The translations under genes and the position numbers were made by a program. A stretch of 64,000 nucleotides of DNA from Agrococcus sp. Marseille-Q4369. GTDB lineage: Bacteria; Actinomycetota; Actinomycetes; Actinomycetales; Microbacteriaceae. Positions 11,716 through 59,709 of the stretch are shown here, piece by piece. The notes under the pieces were generated by a model. The model was not told the DNA's origin, ran no database searches, and saw only the letters and a program-made list of their open reading frames with translations. The first letter of the stretch is position 1; the number at the start of each line of letters is the position of its first letter. The DNA lies in the NCBI RefSeq assembly GCF_018308945.1, contig NZ_CP070501.1:992001-1056000 (forward strand). Direction: 5' to 3'.

Positions 11716-13382
11716 ACGATCACCCGCTGCACTTCCTCGACCGTCGTGAGGCCGAGCGTCGCCTTCTCCCACGCGTCCTGCCGCAGCGAGCGCATGCCCT
11801 GCTGCGCGGCGACGCGCGCGACGTCGGAGGTCGAGGCGCGCTCGACCGTGAGCCGCTCGATCTCCTCCGAGACGGTCATGACCTCGTGGATCGCGATGCG
11901 GCCGCGGTAGCCGGTGCCGGAGCAGTGGGTGCAGCCGACCGCGCGGTGCACGCCGAGCTGGCCGCCGACCTCGAAGCCCATCGCCGCGAACTGCTCAGGG
12001 CTGCGGAGGTCGGGCTCCTTGCAGCGGTCGCAGAGGCGGCGCGCGAGGCGCTGGGCGACGACGCAGTCGAGGGCCGAGCCGACGAGGAAGGGCTCGATGC
12101 CCATCTCGGTCAGTCGCGTGACGGCGCTCGGGGCGTCGTTCGTGTGGAGCGTCGAGAGCACGAGATGGCCGGTGAGCGACGCCTCGATCGCGATCTGCGC
12201 CGTCTCGTGGTCGCGGATCTCGCCGATGAGCACAACGTCGGGGTCGGAGCGCAGGATCGAGCGCAGCGCGGCCGCGAACGTGAGACCCGCCTTCGCGTGC
12301 ACTTGCACCTGGTTGACCCCGGGCATCCGGTACTCGACCGGATCCTCGACCGTGATGACGTTGACCTCGGTGCGCGCGACGGCGTTGAGGGTCGTGTAGA
12401 GCGTCGTCGACTTGCCGGATCCGGTGGGCCCGGTGACGAGGATCATGCCGTAGGGCTTCTTGTACGACGCCTGGTAGCGCTCGAAGTTGTGCGGCAGCAG
12501 GCCGAGGTCGGAGAGCTGGAGCTGCGTGCCGCCGGTGTCGAGGATGCGCATCACGACCTTCTCGCCCCACACCGTCGGCAGCGTCGCGACGCGGAGGTCG
12601 ACCTTGCGGCCGCCGTGCATGACCGACATGCGGCCGTCCTGCGGGCGGCGGCGCTCGGCGATGTCGATGTCGCTCATGATCTTGAGGCGAGAGATGATGC
12701 CCTGCTGCATCGTCTTCGGGGCCGACTGCATCTCGTGCAGCACGCCGTCGACGCGGAAGCGCACGCGCACCGATGACTCGCCGGGCTCGATGTGGATGTC
12801 GCTCGCGCGGTCCTGCACGGCCTGGTTGACGAGCAGGTTGACGAAGCGCACGATCGGGGCGTCCTCGTCGGCGGCGTCGGCCATGCCGAAGCCGAAGGGG
12901 TCGGCGGCGCCCGCTGCCTCCTGCTCCTCCTGGATTGTGGAGGTGATGTCGCTCAGCTCGGAGTCGGCGCGGTGGAAGCGGTCGATCGCTGCGAGCAGGT
13001 CGCCGCGCTCGGCGACGACGGGCTCGACGGCGAGGCCGGAGGCCTGGCGCACGTCGTCGATCGCGAGCACGTCGGCGGGGTCGGTCATCGCGACGACGAG
13101 CCGGCCCTCCTCGTGCGCGACGGGGAGGAGGATGTGCCGGCGCGCGATCGCGCTCGGCACCCGGGAGGCGGCGGCTCGGTCGACGTTCATCTCGCTCACG
13201 ACGACGAACGGGAGGCCGGCCTGCTCGGCGCGCACTCGCGCGGCCTGGGCGCCAGTGATGGTGCCGTCCTCGACGAGGGCGCGGATGGCTCCCTCGTCGT
13301 CGAGGCCGGCGGCGAGCAGCTGGTCGCGGCGAGCTATCGAAAGCTCGCCGCGACGAGCCAGCAAGTACGTCAGCGACGCCAT
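11712..13382 (-). CDS. pilB: Type IV pilus extension ATPase PilB (GspE family)
   Basis: 556 residues from the ATG at 13382 (MASLTYLLARRGEL, the usual PilB opening); the frame is open to 13439, so a longer start is possible. An N-terminal MshEN domain (about 1-150), then the GspE ATPase: Walker A GPTGSGKSTTLYTTL, Asp box EDPVEYRMPG, Walker B VVLIGEIRD and a zinc site of two Cys pairs (CDRC and CTHC about 28 residues apart). It powers pilus extension on PilC. First gene of the operon; promoter expected in 13383-13803. Confidence 0.95.
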   Translation of the reverse strand: MASLTYLLARRGELSIARRDQLLAAGLDDEGAIRALVEDGTITGAQAARVRAEQAGLPFVVVSEMNVDRAAASRVPSAIARRHILLPVAHEEGRLVVAMTDPADVLAIDDVRQASGLAVEPVVAERGDLLAAIDRFHRADSELSDITSTIQEEQEAAGAADPFGFGMADAADEDAPIVRFVNLLVNQAVQDRASDIHIEPGESSVRVRFRVDGVLHEMQSAPKTMQQGIISRLKIMSDIDIAERRRPQDGRMSVMHGGRKVDLRVATLPTVWGEKVVMRILDTGGTQLQLSDLGLLPHNFERYQASYKKPYGMILVTGPTGSGKSTTLYTTLNAVARTEVNVITVEDPVEYRMPGVNQVQVHAKAGLTFAAALRSILRSDPDVVLIGEIRDHETAQIAIEASLTGHLVLSTLHTNDAPSAVTRLTEMGIEPFLVGSALDCVVAQRLARRLCDRCKEPDLRSPEQFAAMGFEVGGQLGVHRAVGCTHCSGTGYRGRIAIHEVMTVSEEIERLTVERASTSDVARVAAQQGMRSLRQDAWEKATLGLTTVEEVQRVIV

Positions 13383-24453: not shown

Positions 24454-24485
24454 CAGCGGCGCGGCCCCTCGGGGTCGCGCCGCTG
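24454..24485 (+). terminator. Intrinsic terminator of pckG
   Basis: CAGCGGCGCGGCCCC at 24454-24468 pairs with GGGGTCGCGCCGCTG at 24471-24485 (one G-T wobble, 2-nt turn), 20 bp after the stop codon. A very stable 15-bp stem. Confidence 0.75.
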
Positions 24486-24524
24486 GCGTCTCCGCAGGCA
24501 TGCGCCGGCCGCCTCTGCAGCATG

Positions 24525-24579
24525 GATGTGTGGCGATCTGCTCCAATGTCGCGCGCGACAGCGCACATCGCCACACTTC
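24525..24579. repeat. Palindromic element on the 3' side of the DUF559 gene
   Basis: Arm GATGTGTGGCGATCTGCTC (24525-24543) and the reverse complement of 24561-24579 agree at 17 of 19 positions, around a 17-nt loop. The core GTGTGGCGAT matches the element at 25622-25678. It lies between the pckG terminator and the DUF559 stop codon. Confidence 0.75.
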
Positions 24580-24601
24580 TCCCAGCGAAGCCGTGGATGC
24601 G

Positions 24602-25549
24602 TCAAGTGCGTCGAGCGCGCGCGGCTCGCACGCGATCCACGAAGTGGGCGCCGCGGCGAGCCATGTGGTCGCGCGTCACCCGCACGTTGATCCAGCCCGC
24701 GGCCTCGAAGCGCGCGTAGCGGTCGATGTCGACGTGCCACTGCCGCTCGCCGCGGTGGCCGTCCCCCTCGTACTCGATCGCGATCTTCAGCTCTGGGTAC
24801 GCGAGGTCGGGATGCCACTCGATGCCGTCGATGACGACGAGCGGATGCACAAGCGGCTCGGGCAGCCCCGCCTCGACGATCAGCAGCCGTGTGATGGTCT
24901 CGAAGCGCGAGTCGACCCCGACGCGCGCGTCGAGAGCCGCGGCGCGGAGGGCCGTGATTCCCGCGAGTCCTGCGCAGCGCTCGATGAACGCGGTCAGCTG
25001 CTCCGGCGTGGCGTACGGCTGCTCCGGCTTGCGCGGCAGCCGCAGACCGGGGTACCAGCGCGACGGCGTGAGCAGCGCGTCGAGCACCTGCACGAGCGCT
25101 TCGTGGTCGAGCTCGCGCGCTAGCGAGAGCGCGGTCGCGAGCGGCTCCAGCAGGACGAGCCCCTCCGAGCGCATCTTGAAGAGGCGGGTGCCGTGGACCG
25201 CGATGTGCCTCGTGCCCTTCGCGTAGCCTCGATTGCTGCCGTGCGCCCGCGCGATCACGAGCTCCTCATCGCGGTGCCAGTCCTTCGCGAGCGGCAAGCC
25301 CCAGAGCCGCGCGGCGGTGATCCCGCCGTACATCTGATGCGGCGCCATCACCGTCGCGTAAGCGAGGGCAAGGCTGCGCACATCGGTGATCGCCGCGGTG
25401 CGCACGCGCTTGAACGGCACGATCAGATCACTCCCGCGCAGCCTGCCGCGGCCTACGCCCGCCTTCAACGCCTCGGCGACGCGGAAGGGCTCCGTCGCGA
25501 ACGGGTCTGGCAGCCGAGTCGGTTGACGCATCCGCGGAGCATGCTGCAT
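24602..25549 (-). CDS. DUF559-type (Vsr-like endonuclease fold) protein
   Basis: About 315 residues. The C-terminal 110 residues have the DUF559/PD-(D/E)xK pattern: HPDLAYPELKIAIEYEGDGH, with candidate catalytic D, E and a following Gln/Trp-rich strand, then YARFEAAGWINVRVT, where a very-short-patch-repair-like nuclease closes. The N-terminal 170 residues resemble the AbiEi-like regions that often precede such domains (LTAFIERCAGLAGITALRAA; LWGLPLAKD). Start 25549 or 25531 cannot be separated; neither has a good ribosome binding site. The gene is bracketed by two related palindromes (24525 and 25622), which suggests a nuclease-palindrome unit. DNA cleavage is inferred, not shown. Confidence 0.7.
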   Translation of the reverse strand: MQHAPRMRQPTRLPDPFATEPFRVAEALKAGVGRGRLRGSDLIVPFKRVRTAAITDVRSLALAYATVMAPHQMYGGITAARLWGLPLAKDWHRDEELVIARAHGSNRGYAKGTRHIAVHGTRLFKMRSEGLVLLEPLATALSLARELDHEALVQVLDALLTPSRWYPGLRLPRKPEQPYATPEQLTAFIERCAGLAGITALRAAALDARVGVDSRFETITRLLIVEAGLPEPLVHPLVVIDGIEWHPDLAYPELKIAIEYEGDGHRGERQWHVDIDRYARFEAAGWINVRVTRDHMARRGAHFVDRVRAARARRT

Positions 25550-25621
25550 CCCCGCGGCACCGCGAGCGCCGCCGGACACCTCGTGTGGATGGGGACGTCC
25601 GCCACCACGAGCGCCGTCGAG

Positions 25622-25678
25622 AGATGTGTGAGGATCGGCTGGCAAGGCTGCGCGATAGAAGCCGATCGCCACACATCT
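25622..25678. repeat. Palindromic element on the 5' side of the DUF559 gene
   Basis: Arms AGATGTGTGAGGATCGGCT (25622-25640) and AGCCGATCGCCACACATCT (25660-25678) are complementary at 17 of 19 positions around a 19-nt loop. The right arm contains the same ATCGCCACAC core as the 3' element. It lies in the divergent gap (25550-25731) between the DUF559 gene and the PaiB-like gene, so it could also be an operator. Confidence 0.78.
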
Positions 25679-37152: not shown

Positions 37153-37173
37153 GCCCCCATCCTCCCCCATCGT

Positions 37174-37238
37174 CTTCAACCGGACAGCCGGTGGGGCGAG
37201 GACATATGCGTCGCGCCCTCCCGGCTATCCGGTTGAAG
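37174..37238. repeat. Long inverted repeat between the aminotransferase and peptidase E-like genes
   Basis: Arms CTTCAACCGGACAGCCGG (37174-37191) and CCGGCTATCCGGTTGAAG (37221-37238) match at 17 of 18 positions. The 29-nt loop contains a second inner stem (GGGCG/CGCCC). It could terminate the aminotransferase mRNA, but there is no T-run and the arms resemble a mobile palindrome more than a simple terminator. Confidence 0.7.
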
Positions 37239-37243
37239 ATGCC

Positions 37244-59674: not shown

Positions 59675-59709
59675 GAGGCCCCGCATCCAGGTGATGGATG
59701 CGGGGCCTC
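59675..59709 (+). terminator. Intrinsic terminator of the betaine ABC operon
   Basis: GAGGCCCCGCATCCA (59675-59689) pairs perfectly with TGGATGCGGGGCCTC (59695-59709) around the 5-nt loop GGTGA, 14 bp after the proX stop. Confidence 0.78.

Follow-up and report, generated by a model that had tools for sequence, protein, structure and literature searches.

AbiEi-nuclease fusion genes bracketed by private palindromes in Agrococcus and other actinobacteria: a candidate REP-like system

Proteins of the DUF559/MTES_1575 type are common in actinobacteria, and to our knowledge no task has been assigned to them. A literature search with poor coverage of subscription journals retrieved no work linking DUF559 or MTES_1575 with palindromes. 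Several described systems share a part of the arrangement reported here. In the REPtron (REP sequences with their TnpA-REP/RAYT enzyme, and REPINs), a single gene is flanked by cognate palindromes, and scattered intergenic copies co-vary with the enzyme. TnpA-REP is an HUH/Y1 tyrosine enzyme, which acts on single strands and on GTAG-tagged REPs (PMC8266576). MITEs and insertion sequences with terminal inverted repeats also have short repeats flanking one gene, as well as small solitary copies. On the protein side, the AbiEi antitoxin of S. agalactiae and Rv2827c of M. tuberculosis autoregulate through 23-bp inverted repeats that they bind in the promoters of their genes (PMC7319586). The homing endonuclease I-Bth0305I (3r3p) has a Vsr-like nuclease fold in which acidic residues and a histidine are conserved. 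VsrA of Caulobacter, with a DUF559/Vsr-type nuclease domain, has been linked to cytosine methylation and mismatch repair, in passages that mention no palindromes (PMC12907096).

The gene studied here lies in a window of 64,000 nucleotides from Agrococcus sp. Marseille-Q4369, the window being the whole stretch of DNA that was analysed. It occupies approximately positions 24602-25531 of the minus strand, flanked by pckG and by a gene for an FMN-binding protein, and encodes a fusion protein of 309 amino acids. A longer reading frame, up to 25672, finds no support among the homologues and would extend into the upstream palindrome. The first-pass annotation had described two imperfect inverted repeats with 19-bp arms, one on either side of a DUF559 gene. 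Both repeats are indeed present at these places, and the arm length holds for the upstream one (25622-25640/25660-25678, 19 bp, 89% complementary); the arms of the downstream one (24525-24541/24563-24579) are 17 bp long and 88% complementary. Measured to their outer ends, both palindromes are exactly 57 bp long. The downstream palindrome (24524-24580) separates the 3' ends of the convergent pckG and nuclease genes, and the upstream palindrome (25622-25678) is situated between the divergent nuclease and FMN-binding genes, 91 bp ahead of the nuclease start codon.

The motif common to the two palindromes had been reported nowhere else in the window. This is correct: the 10-mer GTGTGGCGAT occurs exactly three times, always within the two palindromes, the fourth arm reading GTGTGAGGAT. 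Throughout the 2,737,735-bp genome, the 18-bp arm with up to three mismatches has nine matches (one for the reversed-pattern control), namely the four palindrome arms and five isolated places; these five arms are unpaired at palindrome spacing, and no further window-type palindrome was found in the genome. The exact core was present in only two of 300 Microbacteriaceae genomes. Agrococcus lahaulensis DSM 17612, the nearest relative in the set (99% protein identity), carries an identical core at the place of the downstream palindrome, and its upstream palindrome is likewise at the same place. A G+C-rich hairpin at 24454-24485 (plus strand), 20 bp past the pckG stop codon, is a candidate pckG terminator outside the system; the palindrome at 24524 is therefore not needed for this purpose. 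Short hairpins at 13319-13358 and 59675-59709 of the window are unrelated to the palindrome families described here.

The AlphaFold2 model of the protein, built on 54 relatives, has a mean pLDDT of 95.8 and resolves two halves. Residues 2-203 (24923-25528, minus strand) match AbiEi-type DNA-binding proteins, both the S. agalactiae AbiEi (6y8q; Z 11.1, rmsd 6.1 over 176 residues) and Rv2827c (1zel; Z 8.2, rmsd 4.0 over 183). Residues 208-309 (24605-24910, minus strand) form a nuclease domain of the I-Bth0305I/Vsr type, with matches to the I-Bth0305I catalytic domain (Z 13.0, rmsd 2.3 over 94 residues) and to Vsr (1cw0; Z 9.7). Since E211, D242 and D268 are invariant among the 54 relatives, and E253 and H259 nearly so, the predicted nuclease site is probably active. 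The family name given by the first-pass annotation fits the relatives better than the protein itself, for which the Pfam scan returned no DUF559 (PF04480) match. Its sole Pfam match is MTES_1575 (PF18741), at 19.8 bits and thus under the cut-off of 38.2, and NCBIfam has no family for it. At an E-value of 0.01, MTES_1575 is matched by 44 and DUF559 by 31 of the 54 relatives; DUF2726 and AbiEi are the only other Pfam families among them, the AbiEi matches being weak and rare.

The protein differs from each of its closest described counterparts. From AbiEi antitoxins it is set apart by the attached nuclease domain and by palindromes that lie on both sides of the gene and elsewhere; furthermore, no AbiEii nucleotidyltransferase toxin gene adjoins it, the neighbours being pckG and the FMN-binding protein gene. 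Compared with I-Bth0305I, it has an AbiEi-type DNA-binding half, there is no intron or intein, and complete copies of the presumed site bracket the gene, rather than the gene interrupting the site. The nuclease domain also resembles enzymes of the PvuRts1I/AbaSI type, at low Z, as would be expected if the protein were a restriction enzyme for phage defence and its own DNA carried protected or decoy sites. No methylase or partner gene adjoins, however, PADLOC gave no match, and restriction would call for a commoner site than a private palindrome of such length, which makes this explanation very unlikely. The first-pass proposal of a defence unit likewise received no positive support; no more than three plasmid records and a single phage record contain a relative.

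Relatives of the protein are widespread, being found in 93 of 120 Microbacteriaceae genomes and often several times per genome. For 158 relatives from actinobacteria with usable flanks (80 Microbacteriaceae genome regions, about 70 named-genome loci, and the rest from the window genome or genus), bracketing was scored by locally aligning the 450 bp on one side of the gene with the 450 bp on the other and taking the best score. These genes are non-independent; they were picked by similarity to Agrococcus proteins, and they include a few near duplicates. A threshold of 16 was reached by 102 of them (65%), compared with 0.8% of 1500 cross-gene pairs, and a score of at least 25 by 63 of them (0.13% of the cross-gene pairs). 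A second control treated neighbouring genes alike, at the loci of 66 of the 158 genes. In this long-flank subset, 40 of the 66 nuclease genes (61%) scored at least 16, compared with four of 179 neighbouring genes (2.2%). As an association, the suggested likeness to REP palindromes with their nuclease, or to a nuclease with flanking recognition sites, is thus strongly supported. The window gene itself scores 15, just below the threshold, so that 65% is probably an underestimate. Approximately 35-40% of the relatives have no detectable bracketing at this threshold, some through divergence, as in the window, and some perhaps truly lacking it. In principle, the bracketing could be linked to the DNA-binding half alone and not to the fusion. 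Three genes of the control set (L221:3988-5025, L244:4183-5316 and L253:5798-6283) are themselves bracketed by similar flanks, with scores of 53, 84 and 49.

The bracketing repeats occur in either orientation and are mostly palindromes, with a median hairpin span of 61 bp and a median arm of 23 bp among the bracketed genes. The outer part of the arms shares a weak motif, approximately CGAGTGG (log likelihood 82.7, compared with 19-23 for shuffled arms). Many of these palindromes directly follow genes, and neighbouring genes too have some hairpins (21-29% of their flanks at an arm score of 13), as expected of ordinary terminators or intergenic hairpins that resemble each other by chance or composition. 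Such structures would hardly account for the likeness between left and right flanks seen in the control above, for the common sequence and length of one family's scattered copies, for copies lying between divergent genes, or for the separate hairpin of pckG. We rejected this reading on the neighbouring-gene control and the copies between divergent genes, and consider it extremely improbable.

Judged from the flanking sequences, each nuclease has its own private palindrome. Palindromes were alike (score of at least 16) in four of five nuclease pairs above 80% protein identity, in two of 20 pairs at 60-80%, and in a fraction of 0.00 (rounded) of the 4111 pairs below 60%. GATGTGTGGCGATC is not a palindrome common to DUF559 genes in general, each nuclease having its own. 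The pckG locus illustrates this well. Nine other Agrococcus genomes keep a homologue there, with 59-74% protein identity in those measured, and the orthologues are accompanied by palindromes that vary from species to species but match between the two sides of the gene in any one genome. For example, the palindromes read AGATGTAGGGCC/AGATATAGGG in A. sediminis, CGATGTGTGTCCG in G301, GTTGCGGCG in G302 and TGTCGCT...GGCTCGCAA in G119. A local duplication, first suggested by the confinement of the exact palindrome to two close species, was overturned by these different palindromes around orthologues. In G119, the orthologue (L138, G119:C1:1905000-1907700) has an in-frame TAG stop, and for this reason may be a decaying gene with persisting palindromes.

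In some genomes the nuclease gene is absent from the pckG locus. Three of these (G311, G306 and G317; loci L131, L139 and L140) retain one palindrome between pckG and the FMN-binding gene. This, together with the occurrence of bracketing repeats in either orientation, would suit an insertion sequence or cassette, in which the whole bracketed gene moves and solitary palindromes are its excision footprints. However, the palindromes at the gene-less loci belong to other families (CGGACCCCGG.. or GAACTTCCC..), and the retention of the gene at this locus in nine related genomes indicates that it is not a frequent jumper. For the GAACTTCCC palindromes, a regular-expression search of the collected loci found no linked nuclease. 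Moreover, each repeat is a complete palindrome, whereas MITEs and insertion sequences have simple terminal inverted repeats, no target duplication was seen at the six solitary sites compared, and neither the window protein nor the 54 members in the Pfam scan matched a transposase family. We regard movement of the whole cassette as improbable.

The window genome encodes further nucleases of this kind. The second gene is bracketed by two 61-bp palindromes (TCAACCGGATAGCCGGTGGGGCG...). A third (L003, G000:C1:448179-451349) has arrays of a 20-bp unit, CTGAGTGGCGCCTCCCGCAC, at 570-741 and 1724-1837, of which one side holds 8.6 copies and the other 5.7 in inverted orientation; the corresponding arrays of A. 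pavilionensis hold 14.5 and 11.2 copies. Inverted arrays of 20-bp units, instead of palindromes, are found on both sides of several Agrococcus nuclease genes. Another nuclease gene of the window genome (L271, G000:C1:2490803-2494117) is bracketed by CGCAGAGTGCCGGAACTCTGCG palindromes, unlike those of the other families.

Palindromes of these families are also found away from any nuclease. In A. lahaulensis the window-type palindrome is found again at two places, one after a FUSC-type exporter gene that converges with its neighbour, the other separating an SDR gene from a VanZ-like gene, and A. pavilionensis has a variant of it at the SDR/VanZ place; no nuclease gene stands beside the exporter or SDR/VanZ copies. 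The palindrome of the second nuclease has nine copies in the window genome. One of these is a solitary copy inside the window (37173-37239, with a 61-bp core at 37176-37236), present in A. pavilionensis and absent from A. lahaulensis. A search of 24 Agrococcus genomes with the pattern TCAACCGG-N45-CCGGTTGA, allowing one mismatch, found this family in 13 of them, with 1-21 copies each, and the reversed pattern nowhere. The high-copy genomes G317 and G315 are included in these copy counts, their individual copies not being among the matches listed. In the cases read, solitary copies are intergenic and lie between convergent, tandem or divergent genes. In G119 (L402, G119:C1:414600-417200), three 61-bp palindromes stand in tandem at 104-bp spacing (record positions 415206-415474), adjoining the cognate nuclease gene.

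These solitary copies bear on the first-pass suggestion that the palindromes sit only beside DUF559 genes. It does not hold: copies amid unrelated genes occur in A. lahaulensis and A. pavilionensis, and the window genome too has solitary copies of the second nuclease's family. Occurrence at unrelated loci had been named at the outset as the observation that would speak against such exclusivity. Of the two variants proposed, solitary copies fit the REP-like one better than that of a nuclease with private flanking sites.

The scattered palindromes could also be seen as operators only, with the AbiEi half repressing its own gene and the scattered copies serving as further regulatory targets. The autoregulation described for AbiEi and Rv2827c is in line with this, as are the copy upstream of the gene and the arm length, the median palindrome arm of 23 bp equalling the length of the repeats bound by these two proteins. 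On the other hand, a matching copy is located downstream of the gene as well, and solitary copies between convergent, tandem and divergent genes have been gained and lost between close relatives. A regulator alone would also leave the genome-wide change of 9-21 copies and the conserved nuclease residues unexplained. An exclusively regulatory role is thus unlikely, though we give it some weight.

The copies of one family differ between species in a concerted manner. The search pattern itself sets the length and the outer octamers; the informative part is the 45 inner bases. Averaged over the copies of a genome, their identity is 0.80 in the window genome and 0.79 in G311, compared with 0.48 between genomes; other genomes are less uniform (0.54-0.74 within a genome). 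The relatives of the second nuclease in A. pavilionensis (94% amino acid identity) and G311 (59%) are bracketed by the version of their own species, and those in G300 and G119 (56% each) adjoin a copy of theirs. At three orthologous sites the version in the window genome differs from that in G311 (core identities of 0.44, 0.49 and 0.56), while at these sites the G311 copies are mutually 0.80-0.89 and the window-genome copies 0.76-0.80 identical. Five sites common to the window genome and A. pavilionensis show identities of 0.80-0.98. When six solitary sites of the window genome were compared with relatives, presence differed between close species, and neither target-site duplications nor clean insertion junctions were found at these six sites.

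The place after the FUSC-type exporter gene offers a further example, from the family of the window palindromes themselves. There, the A. lahaulensis palindrome is of the AGATGTGTGGCGATC form found at that species' nuclease, and the A. pavilionensis one, CAGGTATAGGGCG, resembles the CAGGTAGAGGGCG that adjoins the nuclease of A. pavilionensis. In the window genome, however, this site is still of the CAGGTAGAGGGCG type, though the nuclease there has the AGATGTGTGGCGATC type. Palindromes of at least two nuclease families, one being the GGTACCGA type beside the L004 nuclease, are found at the exporter site in most of five species (L032:5951-6007 and the orthologous places in L141, L142, L143 and L144), which suggests a preferred site. 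Differing versions at orthologous sites can reflect either the conversion of one site or repeated insertion at preferred places. They are at most suggestive of homing, in which the gene would sit at its target site and be copied into alleles lacking it.

On balance, we think it likely, if by no means assured, that the gene and its two bracketing palindromes constitute one unit of a REP-like system, whose nuclease binds, cuts and spreads or homogenises the palindrome. The AbiEi half would recognise the arm of approximately 23 bp, and the nuclease half would nick or cut either this palindrome or, elsewhere, a copy of an older version. The cognate palindrome could then be copied in during repair, by which the family would spread and become homogenised, and which would let recognition and site change together. 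The upstream copy is probably also an autoregulatory operator, as in AbiEi. In a broader and more tentative form, which we hold with slightly less than even confidence, AbiEi-nuclease fusions would be a second, independently evolved kind of palindrome-spreading system. Its homing-type nuclease would convert scattered palindromes to the version that is its own, with the recognition domain and the site turning over jointly and the copies of a genome evolving in concert.

The defining features of no known family are all present in this system, and by layout alone it is REPtron-like: a single gene is flanked by cognate palindromes, with up to 21 copies per genome. The enzyme is what separates the two, being an AbiEi fusion with a Vsr/I-Bth0305I-type nuclease; a Pfam scan of the 54 members found no HUH/Y1 tyrosine transposase domain. 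The palindromes themselves, at about 60 bp, differ from REPs, and their outer ends read AGATGT.. or TCAACCGG... Classical REPs also reach higher copy numbers.

Taken together, the pattern suggests that many soil actinobacteria harbour a selfish or homing-like DNA system that is as yet undescribed. If the reading as homing-type conversion is true, it would provide a first function for a large part of the actinobacterial DUF559/MTES_1575 proteins. The private, predictable palindrome beside each gene is a ready substrate for binding and cutting assays. Should the nuclease drive palindrome turnover, these genes would form a selfish system comparable to REPs but run by an unrelated enzyme, and would show in nature how short DNA sites evolve in concert. 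They would then also supply many new specificities for binding and cutting DNA at long sites, the targets of which are known.
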